Assembly (NCBI RefSeq): GCF_946151045.1
Contig: NZ_OX267714.1
Span: forward strand, 2,084,001-2,148,000
Reading direction: 5' to 3'
DNA: 64,000 nt
Source: Mammaliicoccus sp. Marseille-Q6498
GTDB lineage: Bacteria > Bacillota > Bacilli > Staphylococcales > Staphylococcaceae
In this document: positions 1,316 to 31,655 of the stretch, piece by piece
Layout of the letters: every line of letters starts with the position of its first letter
Position numbering within the stretch: position 1 is the stretch's first letter
Position numbers and translations under genes: made by a program
Notes under the pieces: model-generated
The model's input: only the letters and a program-made list of their open reading frames with translations
The model's database searches: none
What the model was told of the DNA's origin: nothing

Positions 1316-1918
1316 TTATTCGAATTTTGTGAATGATGATGCGTCGTGTCGTGATGCTCTTTCGTTTGTCATTTCGCCTTTACCAATAGTCAATAACATT
1401 GCTGGTACGAGGTTGTCTTCAATGTTGAATGCTTCTTTAACAGCTTCTTTATCAAAGCCTATCATTGGGCATGTTGCATATCCTTCGTCTTCGCTTAATA
1501 ACATTAAGTTCATAGCGAATAATGATGCGCCACGTACTGCTTCGTCTCTTTTGTTTGTTTCATCTTCAAAGAATGTATTAACGCTTGTAATTAAGCCTTC
1601 GCGTTTATCACTTGGTATGTGTTTATGTTCAATCCAGTCGTCTGCAATGTCTTCAATTGTGTGATGTGCGTTTAAATCACCTAAAATGATTAAAGTAGCG
1701 CTTGCGTCTTTAATTTTAATTTGTTTATTTGCAGCTTGGTATAATTTTTCTTTTGCTTCATCTGTATCGACAACGATCACTTTCCATTGTTGTAAATTCC
1801 AAGCAGAAGGTGATAAAGCTGCTTTGTTTAAAAGGTTTGTAATTGTTTCTCTATCCATTTCATAATGATTATAATTTTTCACTGAACGTCTTTGTTCGAT
1901 TACTTTTGATAATTCCAT
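1316..1918 (-). CDS. Nitroreductase family protein (FMN, NAD(P)H)
   Basis: The protein has 200 residues, the usual length for the nitroreductase fold. The N-terminal RRSVKNY motif (about residues 10-16) and the SPSAWNLQQW segment (about 36-45) are the family's FMN-binding signatures. A Gly-rich helix-strand region around residues 130-156 with CPMIGFD is also typical. The family reduces quinones, nitro compounds or related electrophiles with NAD(P)H; the substrate cannot be read from sequence. It stands alone as a cytosolic enzyme. A long inverted repeat (1938-1979) lies just upstream of the start and suggests control by a repressor, as is common for MhqN/YdfN-like nitroreductases in Firmicutes. 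Confidence 0.85.
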   Translation of the reverse strand: MELSKVIEQRRSVKNYNHYEMDRETITNLLNKAALSPSAWNLQQWKVIVVDTDEAKEKLYQAANKQIKIKDASATLIILGDLNAHHTIEDIADDWIEHKHIPSDKREGLITSVNTFFEDETNKRDEAVRGASLFAMNLMLLSEDEGYATCPMIGFDKEAVKEAFNIEDNLVPAMLLTIGKGEMTNERASRHDASSFTKFE

Positions 1919-1937
1919 TTATGTCCACTCCTCAACT

Positions 1938-1979
1938 ATTGATAAATATATGGTGATATAATGTCGTGTATTTATCAAT
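1938..1979. promoter_or_regulatory. Candidate operator: 11-bp inverted repeat upstream of nitroreductase
   Basis: ATTGATAAATA at 1938-1948 and TATTTATCAAT at 1969-1979 are perfect inverted repeats with a 20-base spacer. The site lies 20-60 bases before the nitroreductase start, where its promoter would be. No T-tract follows, so it is not a terminator. Binding of a dimeric repressor is an inference. Confidence 0.5.
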
Positions 1980-2111
1980 TTATTTGCTTAATCACTTTCA
2001 CACGAAAAGAAAACCTTTTTAATATAAATCATAAACGTTTATTTGTTACAATAAGGGTAATAAGATGATTTTAGTGTTATGACAGTTGATTGACAAAAGG
2101 GAGCGATGGAC

Positions 2112-2828
2112 ATGATAGATATTCACAATCATTTACTTTATGGCGTTGACGATGGACCATTAGACGCTGAAAGCATGCTTGAATTGGCAAGAGAAGCTGA
2201 AAAGATAGGTATTACTGACTTAGTAGCAACGCCACATTATATTGAGCATCGATTTAAAAACAACGCTCAAATAGTAAAAGATAGAACAGCAGATGTTCAA
2301 TCTATTTTAGATGAAAATGGTATTAAGATAAAAGTCTATCCTAGTCAAGAAATTCATATGTTTGGTAAAGAACTTGAAGGTTTAGAGTCAGGTGAACTCA
2401 TTCCTATTACAGAAGGATCTAGATATGTATTAATTGAATTTCCATTCTTTAGCGTTCCTGATTTTGCTGATGATACGTTTAACAAGTTGTTTGATGCTGG
2501 ATATAGACCGTTATTAGCTCATCCAGAACGTATTATTCCAATACAAGATAATCCTCAAATACTATTTGATTTAATTAAAAGAGGTGCACTTTGCCAAGTA
2601 ACTGCAGGATCATTAGTTAATAAATATGGTGAAGATGCAAAAGTAGCGGCAGATTATTTGTTAGATCAAGATGCAATTCACATTATTGGAAGTGATGCAC
2701 ATAATACAAGTAATCGAAATTTCCATTTACAAGAAGCATACGATTATATAGAAAAAACTAAAGGCATCGATAAAGTTAATGAATTAAAAGAAAACGCTAG
2801 AAAAATATTAAATAACGAAGAAATTTAA
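2112..2828 (+). CDS. PHP-family tyrosine-protein phosphatase (CpsB/CapC type)
   Basis: The start reads MIDIHNHLLYGVDDG, matching the metal-binding beginning of CpsB/CapC/YwqE phosphatases. Further metal ligands are visible in ATPHYIEHR (His42), the HPER motif and the GSDAHN motif near residue 195. These manganese-dependent enzymes dephosphorylate the tyrosine kinase that controls capsule or exopolysaccharide synthesis. At 238 residues the length fits the family. I chose the ATG at 2112 over 2106 because AGGGAG lies eight bases upstream of it. No capsule, Wzz or BY-kinase gene is nearby, so the phosphatase is an orphan here. A strong terminator follows directly. Confidence 0.85.
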   Translation: MIDIHNHLLYGVDDGPLDAESMLELAREAEKIGITDLVATPHYIEHRFKNNAQIVKDRTADVQSILDENGIKIKVYPSQEIHMFGKELEGLESGELIPITEGSRYVLIEFPFFSVPDFADDTFNKLFDAGYRPLLAHPERIIPIQDNPQILFDLIKRGALCQVTAGSLVNKYGEDAKVAADYLLDQDAIHIIGSDAHNTSNRNFHLQEAYDYIEKTKGIDKVNELKENARKILNNEEI

Positions 2829-2833
2829 ACTTT

Positions 2834-2877
2834 AAAAGCAAGAATAGTTAATGTACATTTGCTATTCTTGCTTTTTT
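2834..2877 (+). terminator. Intrinsic terminator
   Basis: The arms AAGCAAGAATAG and CTATTCTTGCTT enclose a 14-base loop and are followed by a T run. It ends the phosphatase transcript. Confidence 0.9.
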
Positions 2878-2991
2878 CTATATAATAAAAAACTAAAATT
2901 ATGACGCAAATAATTGTATTTTAACACTACTAACTTTAAAATAAAGAAGAGAAATAAAGTTTCATTAATAGAATATCGGGGAGCGTTATAT

Positions 2992-3837
2992 ATGAAATTA
3001 GGAGATCGTGTAAAACAACGAAGGATAGATTTAAAACTATCTCAACAAGCATTAGCTAAGGGAATAGCAACGCAAAGTCAAATTTCTAAAATTGAAAAAA
3101 ATGAATTGCAACCGGGATCGCAACTTCTTTTTAATATTTCTAGAAGATTGAAATGTAGTATGGACTTTTTATACATTGGAGACGAGTTGGATACACAACT
3201 TGAACAAAAATTAAAAGTAATCGAAAGACTATTAGAAGACCGCGATTATGATGCACTTATGCCAATAATTGATGGTCATTATTTATCAAACGGGACAACT
3301 GATGAAATCGCCGCTTCAAAATGGGTAAGGTCTATTATTACTTTTTATAAATTTGAAGATGTAGAAGAGGCAACTCAATTAATCGAAGAAGCATTTAAAT
3401 TAATCGATAATAATATGTATGAGAAATTACAAGTATCAATTTGTAATACAAGAGCAATCATTTACTATAAACAAAATGAAAATGAAATAGCTAAACTATC
3501 ATTAGAAAAAGGATTGCAAATTGCTGAGCGATTCAATGTAGAAGATAGTTATAAAATAAAATTGTTAAGCACTTTATCTAATATTTACTATAGCGAATCA
3601 GATTTTGATCGTTGTTTAGCATATGCACAATCAGCATTAGACAAAACTGTTAAATCAAATCGCTATATGCTTTATAGTGAATTAGTTTACAATATCGTAC
3701 AATCTAGAAAAGAAATGAAAATTGTTGATAACTCAGACATAAAACAACTTGAAGTTGCGCTATACTTGAGTGAATTATCTAAAAAACATACACTTTCATT
3801 TTTAATTAGAGACTTAATGAAATCTTTAAAAGAATAA
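2992..3837 (+). CDS. XRE-family regulator with TPR-like C-terminal domain
   Basis: Residues 6-60 form a classic helix-turn-helix (RVKQRRIDLKLSQQALAKG, then SQISKIEKNE). The rest, about residues 75-281, is all-helical with tetratricopeptide-like spacing, including a segment with ICNTRAIIYYKQNENEIAKL. This is the layout of PlcR/Rgg-type regulators, in which the TPR part senses a peptide; whether this one does is unknown. The open frame extends 26 codons upstream, but the ATG at 2992 has GGGGAGCG before it and begins at the expected helix. It is monocistronic, with terminators on both sides. Confidence 0.85.
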   Translation: MKLGDRVKQRRIDLKLSQQALAKGIATQSQISKIEKNELQPGSQLLFNISRRLKCSMDFLYIGDELDTQLEQKLKVIERLLEDRDYDALMPIIDGHYLSNGTTDEIAASKWVRSIITFYKFEDVEEATQLIEEAFKLIDNNMYEKLQVSICNTRAIIYYKQNENEIAKLSLEKGLQIAERFNVEDSYKIKLLSTLSNIYYSESDFDRCLAYAQSALDKTVKSNRYMLYSELVYNIVQSRKEMKIVDNSDIKQLEVALYLSELSKKHTLSFLIRDLMKSLKE

Positions 3838-7566: not shown

Positions 7567-7583
7567 AAGATTTTAAAGCATAT

Positions 7584-7627
7584 AAAAAGAACGCATCATT
7601 AGGCACAGCCTAGTGATGCGTTCTTTT
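7584..7627 (+). terminator. Intrinsic terminator (left twin, locus B)
   Basis: AGAACGCATCATTAGGC pairs with GCCTAGTGATGCGTTCT, followed by TTTT. The same sequence, with a three-base loop change and in direct orientation, recurs at 8127-8170. It terminates aldA. Confidence 0.9.
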
Positions 7628-7645
7628 GTTGTGTAGATAAAATTC

Positions 7646-7735
7646 ACCGATTAAAAACTCGCTTGCCTAGGGTACAGTCTCAGCCTGTAGTCTTCGACTT
7701 GTACTATTCCCTCAGGCGTCTCGTTTTTAATCGGT
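7646..7735. repeat. Q element, subtype I
   Basis: A 90-bp element bounded by ACCGATTAAAAAC and GTTTTTAATCGGT. Inside, GCCTAGGG can pair with CCCTCAGGC (one bulged C). Two small hairpins (TACAG/CTGTA and AGTC/GACT around TTC) lie between them. Copies occur at 14953, 22458 and 27701, all in this orientation. It is followed directly by a 130-bp hairpin array. Confidence 0.9.
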
Positions 7736-7742
7736 TTTTGTG

Positions 7743-8079
7743 TTCTAACGTGAAAGACTGAGAAAACAATCCCCTTAGAAATTCTAACGTGAAAGAAATC
7801 TGAAACAATCCCGTTAGAGCAATTTTAGTTATATAAAAGTGTAATACTACATCTAAAATAGGTCTTTTTCAGTTCTAACGTGAAAGAATGAAAAAACAAT
7901 CCCCTTAGAAATTCTAACGTGAAAGAAATCTGAAACAATCCCGTTAGAGCAATTTTAGCTACTAAAAAGTGTAATATCACATTTCAAACAGGTATTTTTT
8001 AGCTCTAAAGGGAAAGAATCAGAAAACAATCCCCTTAGAATTTCTAACGTGAAAGAATCTTAAAACAATCCCGTTAGAA
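7743..8079. repeat. 130-bp-period hairpin array (locus B)
   Basis: About 2.6 units with starts at 7746, 7876 and 8006. Each unit holds two ~38-base palindromes (TCTAAC.TGA...CCCCTTAGA and TCTAACG.GA...TCCCGTTAGA) and a linker containing AAAGTGTAATA.CACAT. The array fills the space between convergent aldA and amt. Confidence 0.95.
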
Positions 8080-8083
8080 CAAA

Positions 8084-8120
8084 AAACTGCCAACAATTTC
8101 ACTTTATGTGACTTTGTCGA
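8084..8120. repeat. Right-end tail repeat of array (locus B)
   Basis: AAACTGCCAACAATTTCACT, then TTATGTGACTTTGTCGA. A similar tail closes the arrays at 13048-13072 and 22902-22930. It contains a TCAC/GTGA inverted repeat. Confidence 0.65.
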
Positions 8121-8126
8121 CAGTCT

Positions 8127-8170
8127 AAAAAGAACGCATCATTAGGCTATGCCTAGTGATGCGTTCTTTT
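8127..8170 (-). terminator. Intrinsic terminator (right twin, locus B)
   Basis: The same stem as 7584-7627, with loop TAT instead of ACA. It serves the minus-strand amt gene, whose stop is at 8186. Confidence 0.9.
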
Positions 8171-8185
8171 GTTTAATTTTTATGT

Positions 8186-11335: not shown

Positions 11336-12522
11336 TGGATAACCAAGTTAAGAAGCCGATTTGGACAAAAGATTTTATTTTCAACTTTGTCATCAGCTTT
11401 TTTATATTTTTATCAATGTACTTATTGTTAGTAACAGTAGGTGGGTATAGTAAAGAAACATTCGGAGTTTCTGATAGCTTAGCAGGACTAGCGTCAGGGC
11501 TTTTTATTGTTGGATCACTTTTAGGTAGATTTTTAACAGGTAAATATATTAATACACTAGGAACGAAAAAAATACTCATCATCGGTGGTATTTTACTCGT
11601 TGTGACAAATGGACTTTATTTAGTATCAGCTTCATCATTTGCTTTATTACTTATCGTTCGTGTTATAAACGGTGCAGCAAGTGGTATCGCAAGTACAGCT
11701 ACTGGTACAATAGCAGCATTTATAACACCTGCAGAACGACGCAGTGAAGGTATTAGTATGTACAGTTTAAGTATGGTTCTAGGAACAGCGTTTGGACCAT
11801 TTATAGGATTAATACTGTATCAACATATGCCAATGGCCGGATTATTCGCTATTTGTACAGTGCTTATCATTGTAGCATTTGTAATGTCTATATTTATGAA
11901 AGTTAAAACACCAGTTATGGCAAGTACAGAAACGAAAAAAGGATTTAAACTATCTAACTTCTTCTCAGTACACGCATTACCAATTGCTGCAGTTGTCGTT
12001 ATCGTAAGTATTGCATACTCATCTGTACTTTCATTTATACAATTCTTCGCACAACAAAATCACTTAGTAGATGCAGCAAGTTTCTTCTTTGTCGTTTATG
12101 CAATCGCGGTATTGTTAACAAGACCATTTACAGGTAGAATCATGGACCAACATGGAGAGAATATCGTTACAATTCCAGCATTTATATGTCTTGTAATAGG
12201 ATTATTCTTAATCAGCATAGCAAGTAATGGCGTTGTATTACTCGTAGCAGGGGCATTCGTTGGATTAGGATTTGGTAACTTACAATCTATATTCCAAGCA
12301 CTCGCTATAAAAGTATCCCCAGTTGAAAAAATGGGATTAGCAACATCAACTTACTTTATCGCATTAGACTTTGGATTAGGCTTTGGACCGTATGTATTAG
12401 GTAACTTCACACATTCAATAGGTTACTCAGGATTATACTTCGATATGTCAATCGTCGCACTAGTCGGTTTAGTAGCATTTTATTTCTTACACATGATAAA
12501 AGCTAAAAAAGCAGTATATTAA
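11335..12522 (+). CDS. MFS transporter
   Basis: This is a 395-residue major facilitator protein with twelve hydrophobic spans. The loop after span two (GRFLTGKYINTLGTKK) and the GRIMDQHG loop in the second half are the conserved MFS signature loops. It starts on the last base of the marR stop, so expression is coupled. An efflux role is inferred from the MarR partner. The substrate is unknown. The C-terminus is basic (KAKKAVY). A terminator and a 130-bp hairpin array follow. Confidence 0.85.
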   Translation: MDNQVKKPIWTKDFIFNFVISFFIFLSMYLLLVTVGGYSKETFGVSDSLAGLASGLFIVGSLLGRFLTGKYINTLGTKKILIIGGILLVVTNGLYLVSASSFALLLIVRVINGAASGIASTATGTIAAFITPAERRSEGISMYSLSMVLGTAFGPFIGLILYQHMPMAGLFAICTVLIIVAFVMSIFMKVKTPVMASTETKKGFKLSNFFSVHALPIAAVVVIVSIAYSSVLSFIQFFAQQNHLVDAASFFFVVYAIAVLLTRPFTGRIMDQHGENIVTIPAFICLVIGLFLISIASNGVVLLVAGAFVGLGFGNLQSIFQALAIKVSPVEKMGLATSTYFIALDFGLGFGPYVLGNFTHSIGYSGLYFDMSIVALVGLVAFYFLHMIKAKKAVY

Positions 12523-12539
12523 TTTAGAATAAGATATAG

Positions 12540-12574
12540 AAAAGAGCTTGCCGCATTTGCGGTAAGCTCTTTTT
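12540..12574 (+). terminator. Intrinsic terminator (left twin, locus C)
   Basis: AGAGCTTGCCGCA pairs with TGCGGTAAGCTCT around a TT loop, followed by Ts. It resembles the stem at 13090-13124 with four base differences over the 24-base core. Confidence 0.9.
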
Positions 12575-12578
12575 GTGT

Positions 12579-13045
12579 TGTAACGTGAAAGATTGAGAAA
12601 ACAATCTCCTTAGAAATTCTAACGGGAAAGAAATTTGAAACAATCCCGTTAGAGCTATTTTGGCTACTAAAAAGTGTAATATCACATATAAAACAGGTCT
12701 TTTTCAGCTCTAACGTGAAAGACTGAGAAAACAATCCCCTTAGAAATTCTAACGAGAAAGAATTTAAAAACAATCCCGTTAGAGCTATTTCGGTTATAAA
12801 AAAGTGTAATATCACATATAAAACAGGTCTTTTTTAGCTCTAACGTGAAAGACTGAGAAAACAATCCCCTTAGAAATTCTAACGAGAAAGAATTTAAAAA
12901 CAATCCCGTTAGAGCTATTTTGGCTACTAAAAAGTGTAATATCACATATAAAACAGGTCTTTTTCAGCTCTAACGTGAAAGACTGAGAAAACAATCCCCT
13001 TAGAAATTCTAACGGGAAAGAAATCTCAAACAATCCCGTTAGAGC
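12579..13045. repeat. 130-bp-period hairpin array (locus C)
   Basis: About 3.6 units with exact 130-base spacing (TAACG at 12711, 12841 and 12971). The palindromes are the same type as at 7743. The array lies between the convergent MFS and katA genes. No Q element precedes this array. Minus-strand frames of 73-98 codons here are copies of the repeat, not genes. Confidence 0.95.
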
Positions 13046-13047
13046 AA

Positions 13048-13072
13048 AAAACTGCCAATAAGTTCACTTTAA
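13048..13072. repeat. Right-end tail repeat of array (locus C)
   Basis: AAACTGCCAATAAGTTCACT followed by TTAAC. It matches the start of the tail at 8084 and the core of the tail at 22902, but the GTGACTTTG half is degraded. Confidence 0.5.
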
Positions 13073-13089
13073 CTGTTTGTATATCAATC

Positions 13090-13124
13090 AAAAAAAGCTT
13101 ATCGCGTTTGCGATAAGCTTTTTC
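13090..13124 (-). terminator. Intrinsic terminator (right twin, locus C)
   Basis: AAAGCTTATCGCG pairs with CGATAAGCTTT around the loop TTTG and has runs of A and T on both sides. It serves katA on the minus strand. Confidence 0.88.
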
Positions 13125-13134
13125 TATACATCAA

Positions 13135-14607
13135 TTATCCTTCTAAATCTACTGAATTAATATCAATGCCTAATGCGTCTGCTACGCCTTTACCATATGC
13201 TGGATCAGCTTTGTAACAGTTGCGGATGTGACGGTGTTTTACTTCGTCAGTTGTGCCTTGCATTTCGTTTGCTGTGTTTTGGAATATACGTTGTTGTGCT
13301 TCTGGTGATTGTAGACGGAATAAGTTACCTGGTTGTTCGTAGTAATTATCGTCATCTTCACGGAAGTCATGTTCATATAAATCGCCTTCTACTTCTAGTG
13401 CAGGTTTTTTATATTCTGGTTGTGATTCGTGTGCTTCGTAACTATTTGGATAATAGTTGATACCAGCGCCGTCGTTACCGTCAACTCTCATTTGTCCATC
13501 TCTAGAGAATGGGCATACGTTTGTAGCTGCTTTTGGAGAGTTAACTGGAATTTGCCAATGGTTAACACCTAAGCGGTAACGTTGTGCATCTCCGTATGAG
13601 AATAGACGACCTTGTAACATTTTATCAGGTGAGAAGTCTATACCAGGAATGATGTTTGTTGGAGCGAATGCTGCTTGCTCTACATCTTGGAAATAGTTCT
13701 CTGGGTTACGATTTAATTCGAATTCACCTACAGGGATTAATGGATAGTCACCTTTAGGCCAAACCTTTGTTAAATCAAATGGATTATCTTTATGATTTTT
13801 CGCTTGTTCTTCAGTCATAACTTGAATGTACATTTTCCATTTAGGGAAATTGCCTTCTTCAATTGCGTTGAATAAGTCTCTTTGACTTGATTCACGGTCT
13901 TTAGCAATCACTTGTTCAGCTTCATCAGCTGAGAAGTTTTCAATGCCTTGTTGTGTTCTGAAGTGGAATTTAACCCATACACGTTCGCCAGCATCGTTAT
14001 ACATTGAATAAGTATGTGAACCGAAACCGTGCATGTTACGGAAACCTTTTGGAATACCTCTATCAGACATTAAAATTGTTACTTGGTGTAATGCTTCTGG
14101 TAAAAGTGTCCAGAAATCCCAGTTTGATTGAGGGTTGTGCATGTTTGTTTTAGGGTCACGTTTAACAACATGGTTTAAACTTGCGAATAATTTTGGATCA
14201 CGGAAGAAGAATACTGGTGTGTTGTTACCAACTAAGTCCCAGTTACCATCTTCAGTGTAGAATTTAAGCGCAAATCCACGAATATCACGTTCAGCTTCAG
14301 CAGCACCACGTTCACCGGCTACTGTAGAGAAACGCGCGAACATTTCTGTTTGTTTACCAACTTCAGAGAAAATTTTCGCATTTGTATATTGAGTAATATC
14401 ATGTGTTACTGTAAATGTCCCGAAAGCACCTGAACCTTTAGCGTGCATACGACGTTCAGGAATAACTTCTCTATCAAAATGAGCCATTTGTTCTAAGAAA
14501 TAAATATCTTGCATTGAAACTGGGCCACGACGACCAGCAGTCATTGTATTTTCACGATCGGATACTGGTGCACCGAAAAGTCCTGTAAGTTTTGATTTGT
14601 TAGTCAT
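13135..14607 (-). CDS. katA: Catalase KatA (heme, clade 3)
   Basis: A 490-residue monofunctional heme catalase. His55 ([13 protein letters not shown]) and the Asn of [12 protein letters not shown] are the distal residues. The Tyr of [14 protein letters not shown] is the proximal heme ligand. It dismutates hydrogen peroxide in the cytosol. The start is firm, with GGAGG seven bases before the ATG. A PerR box lies 27-41 bases upstream of the start, so peroxide and iron control like S. aureus katA is expected. It is monocistronic and convergent with the MFS gene. Confidence 0.97.
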
Positions 14608-14633
14608 TAATTATCCTCCTTAAGAATACTTAA

Positions 14634-14648
14634 TTATAATAATTCTAA
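14634..14648 (-). promoter_or_regulatory. PerR box upstream of katA
   Basis: On the minus strand the site reads TTAGAATTATTATAA. It matches the PerR consensus TTATAATTATTATAA at 14 of 15 positions. Its place just before katA supports peroxide-responsive control. Confidence 0.75.
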
Positions 14649-14892
14649 TTTCATACTAATTATAATTTAAACTGAGCAAAGTGACAAGTAAAAGAATTAA
14701 TAAAAAAGCTATATACACTATGAGATATAAGTCGATACGTCTGTATAATAGCCGATTAGTGTTTTTAATAAACATTTTACAATGTTATAAAGGCGTTTAT
14801 TGCGATTGTTATTCGCTCAAAGTCTTAATAACAATTATATTGTATAAATCTGAAATGAGAATTTTCTTTATTAATTGATTATAAGAAGTTTA

Positions 14893-14927
14893 AATAAATA
14901 AAAATAGAACACTAAAATGAGTGTTCT
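14893..14927 (-). terminator. Intrinsic terminator, minus strand
   Basis: AGAACACT and AGTGTTCT form a perfect 8-bp stem. On the minus strand it is followed by ATTTTTATTTATTT. It would end the YdcZ/NUDIX transcript after it has crossed the 39-bp array and the Q element. The stretch 14649-14892 shows no convincing gene. Confidence 0.75.
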
Positions 14928-14952
14928 ACTTAAGTATATTGATAAACTTAAT

Positions 14953-15038
14953 GATTAAAAACTCGCTTGCCTAGGGTACAGTCTCAGCCTGTAGTCTTCG
15001 ACTCGTACTAAACGCTTAGGCGTCTTCGTTTTTAATCG
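14953..15038. repeat. Q element, subtype II
   Basis: The same framework as 7646-7735, but the right arm is ACGCTTAGGCGTCTTCG. GCCTAGG pairs with GCTTAGGC, a different but still complementary arm. It is followed at once by a 39-bp array. Confidence 0.9.
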
Positions 15039-15045
15039 GGGTATA

Positions 15046-15160
15046 TTCTAACGAGCATTTCTCAGAATTCTGCTCCTTACAGCATTCTAACGAGCATTAT
15101 TCAGAATTCTGCTCCTTACAGAGTTCTAACGAGCATTTCTCAGAATTCTGCTCCTTAGAA
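15046..15160. repeat. 39-bp hairpin array, 3 units (locus D)
   Basis: Three units of TTCTAACGAGCATT...CAGAATTCTGCTCCTTA. Each contains a central 10-bp palindrome with an EcoRI site. The array starts with TTCTAACG and ends with CCTTAGAA, so the whole array is itself bounded by complementary ends. Confidence 0.95.
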
Positions 15161-15207
15161 TGTGTTCATTATTCATAAACACTCTCTGAATATCTACTTA
15201 ATAATGA

Positions 15208-15672
15208 CTATTGTTTAGAATTATCTCTATCAATAAATAAAGGTTGAATATCGATTCTTCTTAATATAATTTCTTTTACTTTTTCAGGTAATAAATGAAT
15301 TTGAGGTATGTCTTCAAGTTTTACACATACGTAATCAACTTTTGAATCAGGGATTACATTTAAATTTTTGAATGAATCTTGAATTGTAACATTGTAAATA
15401 AATAATATTTCATGCATTGAAGTGCCTTGGTATTCATAAAAATTTTGTATAGTCGTAAGGAAATGAATATTATCACATTCTATACCAAGTTCTTCTTTAA
15501 TTTCACGTTTAATAGCTGAATCAGAACTTTCGTAATATTTAATTCTACCGCCAATTAAAGCGTGAAATTGATGCTTTTTATCGAAGTGAAAACAGTAGCC
15601 ATCATTTGATTTAATGATCGCGCCAACTCTTATATTTACCATGCCTTCTTCAGATTTAAGTGTAAGATCCAT
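15208..15672 (-). CDS. NUDIX hydrolase
   Basis: A 154-residue protein with a full Nudix box at residues 42-64: Gly42, Glu48 and REIKEELGI at 56-64. This matches GX5EX7REUXEEXGU. It hydrolyses a nucleoside diphosphate linked to another moiety; the substrate is not predictable. GAGGGGG lies seven bases before the ATG. The YdcZ-type transporter gene ends 26 bases upstream on the same strand, so they probably share a transcript. The C-terminus is charged and lacks known extra domains. Confidence 0.9.
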   Translation of the reverse strand: MDLTLKSEEGMVNIRVGAIIKSNDGYCFHFDKKHQFHALIGGRIKYYESSDSAIKREIKEELGIECDNIHFLTTIQNFYEYQGTSMHEILFIYNVTIQDSFKNLNVIPDSKVDYVCVKLEDIPQIHLLPEKVKEIILRRIDIQPLFIDRDNSKQ

Positions 15673-21273: not shown

Positions 21274-22401
21274 ATGAAAATTGCAGTAATTGGTGGAGGT
21301 ATAGGCGGATTAACAACTGCTGGATTACTTTATCAAACGGGTCACGATGTACAACTATATGAAAAACGAAATGATTTAATTCAAACTGGTGCAGGTTTAG
21401 GCATTGGTAGCAATGTTTTAAAAGCACTTAAACAATATAAAATGGCATATGCTATAGAACAAGAAGGACAATCATTAAAAAATATAGAAATCAGATCTAA
21501 CCTTAACGAATATTTAAATACTTTAAAAATGAGCGAAGATAAAGAAGCAAATATTACGATTCATAGAAATGTATTACATGAAATTTTAAAAACACAAGTA
21601 CCAGCTGAACGTATACATCTCGATCATAAATTAAAAGAATTTAAACAAAATGCAGATTCAGTTAGACTATATTTCGAAAATGGCGTTCAAGATCAATTTG
21701 ATTTAGTTATAGCAGCAGACGGATTAAACTCAGAAATAAGACAACAACTATTCCCTAAATCAGCACCTAGATATGCTGGGTATACTTGTTTTAGAGGTGT
21801 CGTTAAAGAACATTTCGACATGAAAAGCGACGTAGCTCTTGAATACTGGGGCCATAAAGGACGCTTTGGAATTGTACCTTTAAAAGATGATGAATGGTAT
21901 TGGTTCTGTACAATGAACGCAAAAGAAAAAGACTTACAATATAAATCATTCGAAAAACCACATTTACAAGCATACTTCAATCAATTTCCAGATGAAGTAA
22001 GACAAATACTAGACGCTCAAGAAGAAACAGGCATTCTACATCATGATATGTATGACTTAGTACCACTTAAATCATTCTATTCAGGAAGAGTCATTTTATT
22101 AGGAGATGCTGCACACGCAACAACACCTAATATGGGGCAAGGAGCAGGGCAAGCAATTGAAGATGCTGTAACGATAGCTAATTTACTAAAAGAAAGAGAT
22201 ATCGAATCAGCGCTTAATCGATATAACAAATTAAGAGTGAAACATACGAAGAAAGTAATCTTGAAATCTAGAAAAATTGGTAAAGCAGGTCAAACTTCAA
22301 GTACATTTAAAATAAAAATAAGAAATAGAGTACTCAAAACAAAATCATCAAAATCTTTAAGTAAAAAAGTGAAATTTCTTCAAAAAGCCAAATTAAAATA
22401 A
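21274..22401 (+). CDS. FAD-dependent monooxygenase
   Basis: A 375-residue flavoprotein of the PHBH-like class. The FAD-binding GGGIGG motif is at the start (IAVIGGGIGGLTTAGLL). The DG motif region is around residue 150 (VIAADGLNS). The GD motif is near residue 275 (LLGDAAHATTPNMGQGAG). It would hydroxylate an unknown substrate with NAD(P)H and oxygen. The frame opens seven codons upstream, but that ATG has no binding site. GAAGG lies before the ATG at 21274, which also begins right at the first strand of the Rossmann fold. The last 40 residues are very basic (many Lys/Arg). Confidence 0.88.
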   Translation: MKIAVIGGGIGGLTTAGLLYQTGHDVQLYEKRNDLIQTGAGLGIGSNVLKALKQYKMAYAIEQEGQSLKNIEIRSNLNEYLNTLKMSEDKEANITIHRNVLHEILKTQVPAERIHLDHKLKEFKQNADSVRLYFENGVQDQFDLVIAADGLNSEIRQQLFPKSAPRYAGYTCFRGVVKEHFDMKSDVALEYWGHKGRFGIVPLKDDEWYWFCTMNAKEKDLQYKSFEKPHLQAYFNQFPDEVRQILDAQEETGILHHDMYDLVPLKSFYSGRVILLGDAAHATTPNMGQGAGQAIEDAVTIANLLKERDIESALNRYNKLRVKHTKKVILKSRKIGKAGQTSSTFKIKIRNRVLKTKSSKSLSKKVKFLQKAKLK

Positions 22402-22405
22402 CAAT

Positions 22406-22446
22406 AAAACCCACACATCCGAATGTGAGCGGATGTGTGGGTTTTG
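22406..22446 (+). terminator. Intrinsic terminator (left twin, locus E)
   Basis: AAAACCCACACATCCG pairs with CGGATGTGTGGGTTTT. The identical stem recurs in direct orientation at 22931-22971, with one loop base changed. Confidence 0.95.
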
Positions 22447-22457
22447 TATAAATCTAT

Positions 22458-22546
22458 CCGATTAAAAACTCGCTTGCCTAGGGTACAGTCTCAGCCTGTA
22501 GTCTTCGACTCGTACTAAACGCTTAGGCGTCTTCGTTTTTAATCGG
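22458..22546. repeat. Q element, subtype II
   Basis: Nearly identical to 14953-15038, with the CGATTAAAAAC and GTTTTTAATCGG ends intact. It is followed directly by a 39-bp array. Confidence 0.9.
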
Positions 22547-22555
22547 TTAGGAATA

Positions 22556-22865
22556 TTCTAACGAGCATTTCTCGGAATTCTGCTCCTTAGAGAGTTCTAA
22601 CGAGCATTATTCGGAATTCTGCTCCTTACAGGATTCTAACGAGCATTATTCGGAATTCTGATCCTTATAGGGTTCTAACGAGCATTATTCAGAATTCTGC
22701 TCCTTACAGGATTCTAACGAGCATTATTCAGAATTCTGCTCCTTAGAGGATTCTAACGAGCATTATTCGGAATTCTGCTCCTTAGAGGATTCTAATGAGC
22801 ATTTCTCGGAATTTTGCTCCTTACAGGATTCTAACGAGCATTATTCAGAATTCTGCTCCTTAGAA
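22556..22865. repeat. 39-bp hairpin array, 8 units (locus E)
   Basis: Eight units of the TTCTAACGAGCATTATTC type. Most carry the EcoRI-centred palindrome or a close variant. The array lies between the convergent FAD monooxygenase and ActP-type symporter genes. It ends in CCTTAGAATGTGTTCAT, the same exit sequence as locus D. Confidence 0.95.
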
Positions 22866-22901
22866 TGTGTTCATCATCATTTATAAATTCTCGCTCTTAT
22901 A

Positions 22902-22930
22902 ACAAGTTCACTTTAAGTGACTTTGGCGAT
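22902..22930. repeat. Right-end tail repeat of array (locus E)
   Basis: ACAAGTTCACTTTAAGTGAC followed by TTTGGCGAT. It contains CACTTTAAGTG, an inverted repeat, and matches the tail of locus B. Confidence 0.65.
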
Positions 22931-22971
22931 AAAACCCACACATCCGAAAGTGAGCGGATGTGTGGGTTTTT
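22931..22971 (-). terminator. Intrinsic terminator (right twin, locus E)
   Basis: The same stem as 22406-22446. It ends the minus-strand symporter operon. Confidence 0.95.
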
Positions 22972-22982
22972 CATTCTTATAT

Positions 22983-24530
22983 TTAATGTGATATATCTGA
23001 TGTTGAAATGCCAGTTGCTGATTTTACTTGTACTTCTTTAAATTTGTCTTTTGATTCTGATTTTCCTAAGAATGTTCCTAAAAATGCTGCTATAAATCCA
23101 GCTGGTACTGAAATAATTGCTGGATTAGATAACGGGAATATAGGTGCCATTTTAATAAATGCTGTGCCTGCAGGGTTCATAACGTTAGGGCTTAGAATAA
23201 CGAGTGTAAGTGAAACAATTAAACCAACAGTTATGCCTGTTATGGCACCATGTGTGTTAAATCTCTTCCAAAATATCGTGAATACAATAACTGGTAGGTT
23301 TGCACTTGCAGCTACACAGAATGCTAATGATACAAGGAATGCTACGTTCATGTTTTGTGCAAATAATGCTAGTACTATAGATAACACTGAAACTGCTAAT
23401 GAAGCTAATTTTGCTGCTTTCATTTGTTCTTTTTCAGTAACGTTGCCTTTTTTAATGACTTGTCCGTAAATATCATGTGCAAATGCTGATGCACCAGTTA
23501 GTACTAGACCTGCTACTACAGCTAGTATTGTAGCGAATGCCACGGCTGCTACAAATGACATGAGAAAATCTCCGCCTAATTTTGCTGCTAACAGTGGGGC
23601 AGCCATATTACCAGCTGGGTTAGCTGAAATAATTTCTTCACGCGTTAATAACGCTGCTGCACCAAATCCTAAGAAGATTGTTAATATATAAAATATGCCG
23701 ATAATCCAAGTTGCCCACATAACTGAAGATCTTGCTGTTTTAGCATCTTTAACTGTGAAAAATCTCATAAGTATATGTGGTAAGCCTGCTGTACCGAACA
23801 ATAATGCAACGATAAGTGAAATATTATCTAAAGGTGATTTTCCTTGAGAACCAGGATTAATAAATTCACTTTTAAGTTCTGGTGCTTTAATATCATGCAT
23901 TGCACCAAACATTGACGAAATATTAAAATTAAAATGTAGTAAAACTAAAAATGTAATAATAACCGTACCAATCATAAGCAGTACAGCTTTTACCATTTGT
24001 ACCCAACTTGTTGCTGTCATGCCTCCGAATAAAACATAAATTGTCATCATAATACCAACTAAAATAACAGCAAGTGTATATGGTATGCCGAACAATAGTT
24101 GAATGAGTGCACCAGCACCGACTAATTGAGCAAGCATATAAAATATAACAATTGTGATAGATGAAACAGCAGCCATTGCACGTACTTTTTTAAGTTCAAA
24201 TCTTGCTGCAATCATATCAGCTAAAGTATATTTACCTAAGTTTCTTAAAGGTTCTGCCACAATGTAAAGCACGATTAGATAAGCTGTTAAATATCCAATA
24301 CTATAGAAAAAGCCATCAAACCCCCATAATGCAATCGCGCCTGCAATACCTAAAAATGAAGCGGCCGATAAATAGTCACCAGCAATAGCTAAACCATTTT
24401 GCCAACCTGTTAAGCCTCCTCCAGCAGTATAAAAGTCATTTGCCGATTGAGTCCTTTTAGATGCAAAATATGTAATAAGCAAAGTAATGCTGACAAAAAA
24501 TAAAAACATAATGACAACAATCATATTCAT
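22983..24530 (-). CDS. Sodium:solute symporter, ActP (acetate permease) type
   Basis: A 515-residue SSS-family transporter with about thirteen spans. Typical segments are DYLSAASFLGIAG near residue 50, YVLFGGMTATSWVQMVKA near 170, and LPHILMRFFTVKDAKTARSS near 250. These are hallmarks of the ActP/YwcA group, which imports acetate or other short carboxylates with Na+. It overlaps the DUF485 gene by four bases (ATGA). The DUF485-ActP order is the standard yjcH-actP arrangement. The exact substrate is inferred from that context. Confidence 0.87.
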   Translation of the reverse strand: MNMIVVIMFLFFVSITLLITYFASKRTQSANDFYTAGGGLTGWQNGLAIAGDYLSAASFLGIAGAIALWGFDGFFYSIGYLTAYLIVLYIVAEPLRNLGKYTLADMIAARFELKKVRAMAAVSSITIVIFYMLAQLVGAGALIQLLFGIPYTLAVILVGIMMTIYVLFGGMTATSWVQMVKAVLLMIGTVIITFLVLLHFNFNISSMFGAMHDIKAPELKSEFINPGSQGKSPLDNISLIVALLFGTAGLPHILMRFFTVKDAKTARSSVMWATWIIGIFYILTIFLGFGAAALLTREEIISANPAGNMAAPLLAAKLGGDFLMSFVAAVAFATILAVVAGLVLTGASAFAHDIYGQVIKKGNVTEKEQMKAAKLASLAVSVLSIVLALFAQNMNVAFLVSLAFCVAASANLPVIVFTIFWKRFNTHGAITGITVGLIVSLTLVILSPNVMNPAGTAFIKMAPIFPLSNPAIISVPAGFIAAFLGTFLGKSESKDKFKEVQVKSATGISTSDISH

Positions 24531-27651: not shown

Positions 27652-27681
27652 AAAAAAGATTCGGCGACGAGCCGAATCTTT
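27652..27681 (+). terminator. Intrinsic terminator (left twin, locus F)
   Basis: AAAGATTCGGC and GCCGAATCTTT around GACGA. The same stem in direct orientation is at 28269-28303. It ends metNIQ. Confidence 0.93.
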
Positions 27682-27700
27682 CAGTTTGTATATAAACATA

Positions 27701-27790
27701 ACCGATTAAAAACTCGCTTGCCTAGGGTACAGTCTCAGCCTGTAGTCTTCGACTCGTACTAGTCCCTCAGGCGTCTCGTTTTTAATCGGT
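27701..27790. repeat. Q element, subtype I
   Basis: The same as 7646-7735 except for a few bases (CTAGTCCCTCAGGCGTCTCG right arm). It is followed directly by a 130-bp array, as at locus B. Confidence 0.9.
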
Positions 27791-27797
27791 TTTTTGT

Positions 27798-28265
27798 GTT
27801 CTAACGTGTAAGACTGAGAAAACAATCCCCTTAGAATTTCTAACGGGAAAGAAATCTGAAACAATCCCGTTAGAGCAATTTTGAGTATAAAAAAGTGTAA
27901 TATAACATCTAAATCAGGTCTTTTTCAGCTCTAAGGGGAAAGACTGAGAAAACAATCCCCTTAGAATTTCTAACGTGAAAGAATTTTAAAACAATCCCGT
28001 TAGAGCGATTTCGAGTATAGAAAAGTGTAATATCACATCTAAATCAGGTCTTTTTCAGCTCTAAGGGGAAAGACTGAGAAAACAATCCCCTTAGAAATTC
28101 TAACGGGAAAGAAATCTGAAACAATCCCGTTAGAGCTATTTTGAGTATAGAAAAGTGTAATATCACATCTAAATCAGGTCTTTTTCAGCTCTAAGGGGAA
28201 AGACTGAGAAAACAATCCCCTTAGAAATTCTAACGGGAAAGAAATCTGAAACAATCCCGTTAGAG
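27798..28265. repeat. 130-bp-period hairpin array (locus F)
   Basis: About 3.6 units with starts at 27802, 27932, 28062 and 28192 (exact 130-base spacing). The first palindrome of units two to four has perfect arms TCTAAGGGGA and TCCCCTTAGA. The second has TCTAACGGGA and TCCCGTTAGA. The two differ by a swapped G:C pair. Confidence 0.95.
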
Positions 28266-28268
28266 TAT

Positions 28269-28303
28269 AAAAAAAGATTCGGCGACGAGCCGAATCTTTT
28301 TTT
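28269..28303 (-). terminator. Intrinsic terminator (right twin, locus F)
   Basis: The same stem and loop as 27652-27681. It serves the minus-strand symporter, whose stop codon it touches. Confidence 0.93.
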
Positions 28304-29606
28304 ATGCTTTCTTAATACTTTTTAAATAATTTTGACCTTTTTCGTAATCATAATTATTTTCCCATTTAGCGATAACGACTGTAGATAGTGCGTTACCAAC
28401 TACATTCACACATGTTCTCATCATATCTAATATTCTATCAATACCAATAATTAACGCTAATCCTTCTGGGTTTAAGCCCATAGAACCTAAAGTTGTAATA
28501 AGTACAACGATAGATGTTCCTGGAACGGCAGCCATACCTTTTGATGTAATCATTAAAGTAAATATAAGTATAAACTGTTCTACTACTGATAAATGAACAC
28601 CGTACATTTGTGCTACAAACAATGCAGCAATAGATTGATACAATGCTGAACCATCTAAGTTAAATGTATAACCTGTTGGTATTACAAAAGAAACGACGTC
28701 TTTAGGTGTACCGAATTTTTCCATTTTCTCCATGATTGAAGGTAGTACAGTTTCTGAACTTGCTGTTGAGAACGCCAGTAATAATTCTTCTTTTAATATG
28801 CGGATAATTGAAAATACGTTAATTCCACAAATCTTAGCAACTATACCTAAAACAACAACAATAAAGAATGCCATAGCGAACATAACGACTAATACAAGCT
28901 TCCCTAAAGGTATTAATGCTGATAAACCGAAAGTCATGATTGTTACACAAATAAAAGCAAATACCCCAATAGGAGCTAAAGCTAAAATTCTATGTATCAT
29001 CCAGAAGACAGCTTCTAGAACACCATTTAAAATTTCTTTGACAGGTTCTCCTTTTTTTCCAATAGCAGCAAGCGCTAATCCGAAGAATACTGCAAAGAAT
29101 ATAATAGGAAGTAATTCTCCAGTTGTTAAAGCTTTAAATATATTCGTAGGGATAATATGAACAATTGTATCAATCAAGTGGTTACCATATGTAGTTGTCT
29201 TATCCGTAGCACTCGCAGTTTGTTCATATTTAGAAATGTCCCCTTTAGGTAATTTTGTAGGATCTAATCCAGAACCAGGCTTAAATATATTACCTAATAA
29301 TACACCTAGTGCAATCGCAATAGTCGTAATGATTTCAAAATATAATATCGTTTTCCAACCATATCTACCAACAGTATGCGTATTACCAACATTTGAAATA
29401 GATAGAGCTAAAGAACAAAATACGATAGGTATAACGATCATTTTAATTAAATTTAAAAATACGTCACCAAACGGCTTAATAAATTTAGTTAAATGCGTTT
29501 GACCATGTAAAAAATAACCTACAATTACACCTAAAACTAAAGCAATTAAAATTTGAGTAGGCAAGCTAATTTTTCTTGTTCTAGGCTTTTTTAAGTTTTC
29601 TTTCAA
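28302..29606 (-). CDS. Dicarboxylate/amino acid:cation symporter (GltP/GltT type)
   Basis: A 434-residue DAACS-family transporter. Signature segments are AFSTASSETVLPSIM (serine-rich hairpin), GYTFNLDGSALYQSIAALF and the last-third RILDMMRTCVNVVGNAL. It imports glutamate, aspartate or a dicarboxylate with Na+ or H+. The longest frame begins 16 codons upstream, but GGAGG seven bases before the TTG at 29606 shows a TTG start, giving MKENLKKPRTRK. It is convergent with metQ. Confidence 0.9.
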   Translation of the reverse strand: MKENLKKPRTRKISLPTQILIALVLGVIVGYFLHGQTHLTKFIKPFGDVFLNLIKMIVIPIVFCSLALSISNVGNTHTVGRYGWKTILYFEIITTIAIALGVLLGNIFKPGSGLDPTKLPKGDISKYEQTASATDKTTTYGNHLIDTIVHIIPTNIFKALTTGELLPIIFFAVFFGLALAAIGKKGEPVKEILNGVLEAVFWMIHRILALAPIGVFAFICVTIMTFGLSALIPLGKLVLVVMFAMAFFIVVVLGIVAKICGINVFSIIRILKEELLLAFSTASSETVLPSIMEKMEKFGTPKDVVSFVIPTGYTFNLDGSALYQSIAALFVAQMYGVHLSVVEQFILIFTLMITSKGMAAVPGTSIVVLITTLGSMGLNPEGLALIIGIDRILDMMRTCVNVVGNALSTVVIAKWENNYDYEKGQNYLKSIKKA

Positions 29607-29792
29607 ATTAATTCCTCCTTTAAAGTATATAAAATGCAACACAAAAAAATTCATGCCTTTCCATATCGGAACTGCATAAATAATGTGTTAAAAGGGGATG
29701 TCTACATAAAAAATGTAAATTATTGGTATAAGGGTAAAAATATTTTAGCATGATTTTTTTAAAAGGTAACGTATATCTTTTTCTATAAAATA

Positions 29793-29830
29793 GAAAAAAT
29801 ACACCTTTTCATAGAAAAAGTGTATTTTAG
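29793..29830 (-). terminator. Intrinsic terminator (left twin, locus G)
   Basis: AAAATACAC and GTGTATTTT stem with a 15-base loop. Its twin is at 29973-30009. The sequence from 29607 to 29792 upstream of the symporter shows no gene. Confidence 0.75.
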
Positions 29831-29834
29831 ACTT

Positions 29835-29960
29835 GTGACCGTTAGCGGATTCTAACGACCATTATTCGGAATTGTGACCGTTAGCGGGTTCTAACGACCA
29901 TTATTCGAAATTCTGACCGTTAGCGGATTCTAACGACCATTATTCGGAATTGTGACCGTA
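29835..29960. repeat. 39-bp hairpin array, GACC variant (locus G)
   Basis: About three and a quarter units of TTCTAACGACCATTATTCGG, then AATTGTGACCGTTAGCGGA, with 39-base spacing. The arms CTAACG and CGTTAG pair. It is the same family as the GAGC arrays but with another stem sequence. It lies between two minus-strand genes. Confidence 0.93.
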
Positions 29961-29972
29961 AAGTTTAACAAC

Positions 29973-30009
29973 AAAAAAACACACTTTTATTATCAAAAAG
30001 TGTGTTTTA
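29973..30009 (-). terminator. Intrinsic terminator (right twin, locus G)
   Basis: AAAACACACTTTT and AAAAGTGTGTTTT stem, just after the DUF4870 stop at 30017 on the minus strand. Confidence 0.85.
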
Positions 30010-30016
30010 GAAACTA

Positions 30017-30415
30017 TTATTTGAAGAAACGGATTGATAATGGTGGTAAGTATGTTTCTCCGTTATATGCTTTTACAGCGCCTATAATTGTAAATACTAT
30101 TAATAATATAACTAAAATAGGAATAATTAACAATCCGATTAAAACGATACAAAGCAGTCCAGCAATGAATGACCATATTGTATAAGAAATATAGAAGTTT
30201 AAAAAGTCTTTACCAATTTTATCGACAAATGAAGAATTTTCCCTTTTAATTAACCATATAATTAATGGTGCAACTAAATAAGTAAAAAAGCTAGTTAAAT
30301 AAATCAACATGCCGAATAATCTTTCATCGTCTGTAGTGGATCCGTTATTGTTAATATTTTTATTTTCGTGATTAAGTGTTGATTCTTGAAATGGATTTTG
30401 TTCATTATTATCCAT
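30017..30415 (-). CDS. DUF4870 domain membrane protein
   Basis: A 132-residue protein. The first 30 residues are polar and Asn-rich. From residue 32 onward come three to four hydrophobic spans with the DUF4870 pattern (ERLFGMLIYLTSFFTYLVAP, then the basic loop WLIKREN, VDKIGKDFLNF). DUF4870 (TMEM/YtzE-like small membrane) proteins have no settled function. AAGGAGG precedes the ATG. It stands between two hairpin arrays. Confidence 0.8.
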   Translation of the reverse strand: MDNNEQNPFQESTLNHENKNINNNGSTTDDERLFGMLIYLTSFFTYLVAPLIIWLIKRENSSFVDKIGKDFLNFYISYTIWSFIAGLLCIVLIGLLIIPILVILLIVFTIIGAVKAYNGETYLPPLSIRFFK

Positions 30416-30524
30416 AAATAAACCTCCTTAAGTGATACTTATAGTCATTATACAATTTATGATAGTATTAACCAATAGAAAATATGAAATTTAAATAATA
30501 TAAAATTTGTAAATAAACTTACCA

Positions 30525-30545
30525 GATTAAAAAAGGCTAGGGAGG
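30525..30545. repeat. Possible degenerate Q element remnant
   Basis: CCAGATTAAAAAAGGCTAGG resembles the left end of Q (CCGATTAAAAACTCGCTTGCC). It sits where Q sits in loci B, D, E and F, directly before the array. The rest of Q is missing. Confidence 0.35.
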
Positions 30546-31011
30546 TTCTAACGAGCATTATTCAGAATTCTGATCCTTACAGCGTTCTAACGAGCATTAT
30601 TCAGAATTCTGATCCTTACAAGATTCTAACGAGCATTATTCAGAATTCTGCTCCTTACAGCATTCTAACGAGCATTTCTCAGAATTCTGATCCTTACAGC
30701 ATTCTAACGAGCATTATTCAGAATTCTGCTCCTTACAGGATTCTAACGAGCATTTCTCAGAATTCTGCTCCTTACAGCGTTCTAACGAGCATTATTCAGA
30801 ATTCTGCTCCTTACAGCATTCTAACGAGCATTATTCGGAATTCTGCTCCTTACAGAGTTCTAACGAGCATTATTCAGAATTCTGATCCTTAAAGCATTCT
30901 AACGAGCATTTCTCAGAATTCTGCTCCTTAAAGCGTTCTAACGAGCATTATTCAGAATTATGCTCCTTACAGCATTCTAACGAGCATTTCTCAGAATTCT
31001 GATCCTTAGAA
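30546..31011. repeat. 39-bp hairpin array, 12 units (locus H)
   Basis: Twelve GAGC-type units with exact 39-base spacing, the longest such array in the window. Two alternating sub-variants (CATTATTCAGAA and CATTTCTCAGAA; CTGCTCC and CTGATCC) are mixed, which suggests units move or convert within the array. It ends CCTTAGAACACATC. Confidence 0.95.
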
Positions 31012-31045
31012 CACATCCCATCATATATAAACTAGATGTGCACAT

Positions 31046-31080
31046 AAAAAAAGAGAGCAATCGGCTGATTGCTCTCTTTT
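31046..31080 (-). terminator. Intrinsic terminator downstream of CHAP gene
   Basis: AGAGAGCAATCGGCTGATTG then CTCTCT form a strong hairpin. A shorter copy of the same hairpin is at 33397-33430 after the paralogous ssaA-like gene. Confidence 0.9.
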
Positions 31081-31091
31081 ATATATATTTC

Positions 31092-31655
31092 TTAGTGAAT
31101 GTAGTTGTATGATCCAGCTTCTGAAGCTGAGATTGTACGGTTTGAAACGACACCTTCACCTTGGTAGTTCATTTCTGAAACTTCGATACTACCGTCTGAG
31201 TTTACGTTTTCAACATATGCAACATGTCCGTAAGCGCCAGCTGATGATTGTAGAATTGAACCTTTTTTAGGTGTATTGTCTACTGTGTGTCCGTCAGCTG
31301 CTGCGTTTGAAGCCCATTGGTTAGCATTTCCCCAAGTTGAACTGATTGGGTCTCCATCTTGCATTTTTTTATCAAATACATAGTAAGTACATTGTCCAGC
31401 TGTGTATAAGTTAGCTGAAGATGAGCTAGTTGTTTGTGTTGCTGTTTGACTTACTGATGTAGTATTTGTTTGATTCATGTTTGAAGTGTTGAAATTTTGG
31501 CTATAGTTATTAGTATAGTTAAAGTTTTGAGATTGTGTTTGCGTCTGTTGAGGAGCTTGGTTTTGATTGAAAGTATCAGCAGATGCTTCACCGTTTCCTA
31601 TAATAGTTGTTGCTAATCCCGTAGTTAAAAGTGCTACTGTAGTAATTTTTTTCAT
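31092..31655 (-). CDS. Secreted CHAP-domain protein (SsaA-like)
   Basis: A 187-residue exported protein. The signal peptide is residues 1-26 (ending GEASA). A Gln/Asn/Thr-rich linker spans 27-80. A CHAP domain follows at 81-187 with catalytic Cys89 (GQCTYYVF) and His144 (YGHVAYVE). CHAP proteins of this type are amidases or endopeptidases that cut staphylococcal peptidoglycan. It is a shorter paralogue of the gene at 33441, and both end in the same SEMNY...YNYIH C-terminus. GGAGG precedes the ATG. A WalR-like site lies upstream. Confidence 0.9.

Follow-up and report, generated by a model that had tools for sequence, protein, structure and literature searches.

Two convergent genes of Mammaliicoccus sp. 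Marseille-Q6498 end in transcription terminators that are nearly identical, and an array of hairpins lies between them. The genes are unrelated, which raises the question of how their terminators came to be so alike. The window analyzed here is a stretch of 64,000 nucleotides of this genome (contig NZ_OX267714.1, positions 2,084,001 to 2,148,000), and coordinates given without a locus or contig label refer to it.

Twin terminators enclose a composite element between aldA and amt

The site (locus B) is the gap between the aldehyde dehydrogenase gene aldA on the plus strand and the ammonium transporter gene amt on the minus strand, a convergent pair whose identities were confirmed by Pfam. The left terminator copy, T1 (7583 to 7630, plus strand; palindrome 7585 to 7627, loop ACA), is placed where it could terminate aldA, and the right copy, T2 (8126 to 8173, minus strand; palindrome 8128 to 8170, loop TAT), is placed where it could terminate amt. 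Next to T1 lies the left end of the element (7628 to 7645, plus strand; GTTGTGTAGATAAAATTC, diverged from the family form CAGTTTGTAGATAAACTTAAC), followed by a hairpin that we call Q (7646 to 7735, minus strand). The hairpin array itself (7735 to 8082, plus strand) has three units at a 130-bp period, starting at 7735, 7865, and 7995, the last of them partial; their identities to the first unit are 100%, 89%, and 64%. A tail hairpin with the right end of the element (8083 to 8126, plus strand; ...GTGACTTTGTCGACAGTCT) completes the order of terminator, Q, array, tail, and terminator that had been proposed in a preliminary description and that the coordinates bear out.

T1 and T2 form a direct repeat of 48 nucleotides with 45 identical positions (94%). 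Their 20-base arms are identical, and all three differences fall in the loop (ACA in T1, TAT in T2), as had been described. The pair scored 81 when aligned directly and 71 when inverted. In addition, the same asymmetric T:G position occurs on the same side of both stems, indicating direct copies and upholding the earlier argument from this wobble. Both sequences fold like terminators: T1 on the plus strand, where its arms pair completely (-31.1 kcal/mol), and T2 on the minus strand with one mismatch, since the T:G pair turns into C:A there (-26.7 kcal/mol); none of 200 shuffles did as well in either case.

Twins recur at other copies of the element and not at element-free convergent gaps

Sixty loci were taken around Q and array matches in the window's genome. 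The search scored the best 40 of 104 Q candidates and the best 40 of 55 array-unit candidates, so the genome may hold more copies. At each locus the two 450-bp flanks were matched to each other, with a threshold of 37 set at the 99th percentile of 1500 swapped left/right pairs. Locus-specific direct twins scoring at least 37 were found at 30 of the 60 elements (two of the 30, L137 and L118, being doubtful), compared to about 1% of swapped pairs, and in 28 of these 30 the direct score exceeded the inverted one. Locus B, at 81, lies far above the threshold; the maximum among swapped flanks was 127, which probably arises from fetched loci that overlap one another. The other 30 elements had no twin at this threshold, although the test overlooked the twins of L120, L134, and L141. 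The terminator sequence differs from one twin locus to the next, so it does not travel with the element. Furthermore, a hairpin whose 3' foot lies 8 to 36 bp before Q was present at 33 of 53 Q copies, compared to 13 of 362 random positions between reading frames.

As a control unselected for twins, we scored the gaps in 264 kb, comprising the window and 10 stretches. Convergent gaps contained twins in four of six cases with an element and in none of 23 without one (P = 0.0006); for all gaps, the counts were 5 of 13 and 1 of 141, respectively, and the sole element-free gap with a scored pair resembles another hairpin array. This control divided one further element, locus C, by a spurious frame and hence missed its twins. 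Independent look-alike terminators were rejected as an explanation, given that swapped flanks rarely match and that element-free convergent gaps lack twins. The earlier expectation that independent terminators of unrelated genes should not be this alike stands, and twins without an array, which would have spoken against it, did not appear at the 23 element-free convergent gaps.

Within the window, clear twin terminators flank sister elements at 27652 to 28310 (the L172 locus) and at 22401 to 22983, the latter with another array type (V). A third sister array, without Q, lies at 12522 to 13135 between diverged twins; read by hand, two of their stem pairs are altered on both sides with pairing preserved. 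Twins were looked for and not found in the element-bearing gaps 14607 to 15208 and 30415 to 31092, and only a weak pair (score 37) was seen in the gap 29654 to 30017. By eye, array types U, V, W, and X (compared at 22550 to 22865 of the window, L120 positions 1920 to 2120, and L128) have closing TCTAAC/GTTAGA stems in common and differ in their interiors, within the same frame of Q and tail. The window also contains a very long open reading frame (51463 to 62850; 3795 amino acids).

Genomes other than that of the window gave a sparser picture. In 10 random stretches of genome G007, a scored pair occurred in one of eight gaps with related arrays and in 1 of 100 without; both pairs look like array hairpins, so this genome does not show the twin pattern. 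Among 27 Q/U loci of other genomes, picked by the search tool and in some cases overlapping, the scan found twins at only two: L028, which has ends like those of an insertion sequence (IS), and L017, which is less clear.

The element resembles an IS1182-family insertion sequence in its ends and its duplications

The element family is bounded as T1-CAGTTTGTAGATAAAC...Q hairpin...array...GACTTTGTCGACAGTCTG-T2. At intact left ends the terminator foot is followed by CAGTTTGTAGATAAACTTAAC, and at intact right ends GTGACTTTGTCGACAGTCTG is followed by the second terminator. Where both ends were found by pattern, the repeat directly adjoins both in 13 of 20 rows for array elements, a set that includes three chance matches to the pattern, and in all four IS rows. 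Locus B is not among these rows, since its left end is too diverged for the pattern. No right end was recognizable in the tail-less elements L138, L167, and L172.

The window's genome also carries an IS whose 459-amino-acid transposase (P0001) scores 453.3 bits on NCBIfam NF033551, the IS1182 transposase model (cutoff 270), with domains PF05598, PF01609, and PF13751 above cutoff. Its terminal inverted repeats, CAGAGTGTCGACAAA and CAGACTGTGGACAAA, match at 13 of 15 positions (9 of 2000 shuffles as good). The two full copies in this genome (L176 and L177) aligned over 1642 bp with two mismatches and one gap and are flanked by different whole palindromes, AAATGCC...GGCATTT (34 bp) and AAATAAACGG...CCGTTTATTT (36 bp), with the repeats flush to the IS ends CAGAGTGTCGAC...GTCCACAGTCTG. 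A whole palindrome stands on both sides of copies L176, L177, L193, and L202, and stem-loop deletion of the IS1272 type was not encountered there. Genome G005 has two IS copies with internal deletions, L198 and L202. Twins are retained at L202 (25 bp, one mismatch), the right copy is missing at L198, and the IS right end is missing from L197. Two contig ends (G000 C3:1-127 and C2:320766-320892) match IS ends, so that another IS copy is apparently split by a break in the assembly. A second, distant IS1182-like transposase (571-amino-acid frame; G000 C3:1405444-1406961, L179) has several relatives in genome G002.

The ends of the two kinds of element resemble each other. In its family form, the array element's right end agrees with the left end of the IS, taken on the opposite strand, in 17 of 18 bases, a fit equaled by none of 2000 shuffles, and its left end gives a modest match to the IS right end on the opposite strand (14 of 2000 shuffles as good); the left end of locus B itself is more diverged than the family form used here. 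The element's own two ends matched each other no better than shuffles in a local test (922 of 2000), and by eye 11 of 17 positions agree. In addition, Q can be aligned over 43 bases to a hairpin that lies upstream of the transposase gene of the IS. L134 is a chimera between twin terminators, one side having a Q-type left end and the other 369 bp that are 99% identical to the IS. The roughly 1.7 kb between the L134 twins (within positions 1740 to 3540) includes a reading frame whose product, judged by eye, looks like a helix-turn-helix regulator.

Whole-palindrome repeats extend to related copies elsewhere. Of 939 plasmid records that matched the IS, eight copies were read; four have such repeats, in S. 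arlettae (21 bp), S. simulans (27 bp), Macrococcoides canis (22 bp), and Sutcliffiella horikoshii (30 bp), and no twin was found at the other four. L028, a Q-bearing element from another genus of the family, lies between two copies of a palindrome of about 33 bp. Long repeats may be listed for the IS1182 family in ISfinder-type tables.

These observations bear on whether the element could move without a transposase, by homologous recombination or replication slippage between palindromes. L120 (positions 1735 to 2340) has a tandem arrangement of terminator, Q, array, tail, terminator, and partial Q, as if from unequal exchange, which could produce it, or from a second insertion. However, at many loci the fixed ends (CAG...CTG) adjoin palindromes that are unrelated to one another, and similar ends with the same duplication enclose an intact IS1182-family gene. 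We therefore regard movement without a transposase as highly improbable. Instead, the data support the whole unit of left end, Q, array, and tail as what moves, in association with the IS1182-family insertion sequence.

Relatives carry a single terminator at related insertion sites

The preliminary description had looked to relatives for an empty site with a single terminator. One case concerns IS copy L193 in genome G006, a sister species, which has the repeat AAAGAAGCATTACACGTTTGTGTAATGCTTCTTT on both sides. At the corresponding site, G001 has one copy of the palindrome; identity in the flanks is 98% and 95%, and the left and right alignments share exactly 34 bp. This overlap was 35 bp in G002 and 34 bp each in G004 and the window's genome, and one unrelated terminator is present in G003 and G007. 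Two G005 contig ends at this site (C215:3850-4053 and C30:1-300; L273 and L274) would fit a separate IS insertion, oppositely oriented and flanked by a repeat of its own, and this terminator may thus be an insertion hot spot. At the site of L177, the flanks overlap at one hairpin in G005 (31 bp) and G003 (29 bp); G002, G007, and G004 gave no alignment there.

For the array element at 27652 to 28310, all seven genus mates have one terminator, which aligns to both T1 and T2 of this element with overlaps of 32 to 37 bp. Its twins have the loop GACGA in common, and this loop occurs in none of the seven mates, which argues for a duplication within this lineage rather than an ancient pair of terminators. 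Across six insertion sites, no twin pair was found in the 36 stretches covering them in relatives. Locus C, the element at 22401 to 22983, and L139 (7, 6, and 5 stretches of relatives, respectively, without a twin pair) add no empty-site proof, since the terminators there are too diverged to align to T1 or T2. At locus B, aldA and amt are not neighbors in the genus mates, among the matches listed. Eight relative loci beside aldA (L181 and L182) or amt (L183 to L188), read on the side facing the other gene in the window, contained no hairpin like T1 (scores 13 to 17). The expected single terminator was thus seen at related insertions (27652 to 28310 and L193), whereas relatives of locus B show nothing like T1; the contrary outcome, relatives with two terminators, did not occur where tested.

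The preliminary description had also proposed that the copies might be kept alike by conversion. In its full form this explanation holds that two terminators pre-existed, one per gene, and that gene conversion kept them alike while the array grew between them. At locus B, T1 and T2 differ at three of three loop bases, unlike a fresh duplication, and matching stems around a differing loop would fit conversion. Over 26 twin pairs, mismatches were commoner in loops (7 of 124 positions) than in stems (9 of 739; P = 0.004), fitting drift around a homogenized or constrained stem. (The table had 27 pairs; one of them, L157, consists of array hairpins, and its columns were removed by hand before the test.) However, three of the seven loop mismatches come from locus B, the bias is not significant without it (P = 0.11), and selection on the stem explains it equally. 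Conversion also sits poorly with the single terminators in relatives at 27652 to 28310 and at the L193 site and with the absence of twins from both the element-free convergent gaps and the relatives' stretches. Given the one-terminator empty sites, conversion is not needed, and we consider it very unlikely.

A proposed route from one terminator to two

We conclude that the twins of locus B are very probably two copies of one terminator, duplicated when a small nonautonomous transposon, related to a terminator-targeting insertion sequence of the IS1182 family, inserted into it. This reading is supported by the one-terminator empty sites together with whole-palindrome duplication by an intact IS with similar ends. 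It retains the earlier proposal that the array entered a terminator and duplicated it, with the correction that the whole element moved and not the array alone.

The starting site would have been a single bidirectional terminator common to convergent aldA and amt, into which a nonautonomous, miniature inverted-repeat transposable element (MITE)-like element inserted. An IS1182-family DDE transposase would join one element end to each foot of the terminator palindrome, on opposite strands, and gap repair would then copy the entire stem-loop, giving a full terminator on each flank. As a consequence, aldA and amt would each keep a working terminator, and the element would be insulated between the two. 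At the level of sequence comparison, whole-palindrome duplication is established for the IS itself, near-identical empty site included, and whole-terminator duplication for the array element at 27652 to 28310 against seven relatives. Locus B would have followed the same route, strand chemistry included, and the ends and the duplications suggest that this IS mobilizes the array family. Selection may fairly be supposed to have kept both terminators after insertion.

A further explanation concerns the Q hairpin, which is the core of a minus-strand match to the Rfam family tsr24 (RF02577; 7623 to 7875; 64.8 bits, cutoff 50). Matches above the gathering cutoff were found in the window and at all four of the Q-bearing loci of the same genome that were searched. 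The duplication might accordingly be maintained as a regulatory or small-RNA locus, in which a predicted minus-strand tsr24-like RNA would end at T1, insulated by the twins. The tsr24 matches lie on the strand that runs from the array through Q to T1, and Q folds better on that strand (-38.1 compared to -31.3 kcal/mol). However, 20 of 53 Q copies have no detected hairpin at the place of T1, and the Q-like hairpins of IS copies L176 and L193 and of element L028 fall below the tsr24 cutoff, giving no match. This explanation, which we hold to be unlikely, concerns use after insertion and not origin. In genome G012, two tsr24 matches occur in a context unlike that of the window's elements, one of them directly beside an RNAIII match (L013, positions 1488 to 1605 and 1637 to 2142).

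Taken more broadly, duplication by insertion accounts for near-identical terminators at unrelated convergent genes and suggests a way for mobile elements to invade a transcription terminator while costing the adjacent genes little. In addition, matches of an annotated small-RNA family are now located within what appears to be a mobile element. We tentatively offer, as a possibility somewhat short of even, a general picture in which a clade of IS1182-family transposases reads terminator palindromes by shape and cuts at both feet, thereby duplicating the host terminator. By this means an array-bearing nonautonomous family would have reached many gene ends in a single genome, and the twins would keep host genes terminated, insulate the element, and lend a tsr24-like RNA a host terminator, amounting to a terminator-preserving transposon lifestyle.

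Comparison with known systems

The IS1182 family and its targeting of palindromes and terminators are already known; as far as the available parts of the literature cited here show, what is added is the duplication outcome with empty sites and a large array-bearing nonautonomous family. According to the portions of two reports available, IS1272 and TnSha1, IS1182-family elements of Staphylococcus, target inverted repeats, often terminator hairpins, without a sequence consensus, and TnSha1 inserts in both orientations (PMC5678879, PMC4923244). Transposase family and target, a palindrome that is often a terminator, are thus the same as in our elements. The outcome differs: in these accounts IS1272 and TnSha1 delete or replace the stem-loop without target duplication, whereas here the whole stem-loop is duplicated. 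Specifically, the consulted parts of Wan et al. 2017 (PMC5678879) describe replacement of the stem-loop by IS1272 and draw duplication of the whole stem-loop as a hypothetical pathway b, and those of Furi et al. 2016 (PMC4923244) describe targets that are hairpins, in several cases terminators, and that are partly deleted without being duplicated. That hypothetical route of palindrome-targeting transposition now gains empty-site evidence.

For the IS1182 family at large, a 2015 review by Siguier et al., as cited in the accessible text of Wan et al. (PMC5678879), states that some members target palindromes, with no detailed data. P0001 belongs here by its score above the NF033551 cutoff, and its plasmid relatives also show whole-palindrome repeats; in contrast, two other members are tabulated with 4-bp repeats in the excerpts available (PMC3281130, PMC3196728). 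An IS1182 element that duplicates a whole terminator is not reported in the available parts of PMC2873960, PMC2267715, PMC5678879, PMC4923244, and PMC3281130, nor in those of PMC3196728, PMC10383233, PMC10433421, and PMC10969869.

The family tsr24 is known as a small RNA of S. aureus; here it matches one component of the element, the Q hairpin, and not the whole. Target duplication with an empty site, as expected of a MITE-like family, was seen at the sister element at 27652 to 28310; for locus B no empty site was found among the relative loci read. Like bacterial MITEs as they appear in the consulted part of PMC10969869, the elements are short, noncoding, and multicopy, with IS-like ends, target duplication, and structured RNA. 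They differ from the MITEs treated there in their variable internal hairpin arrays and in a duplication of about 20 to 45 bp that is itself a terminator.
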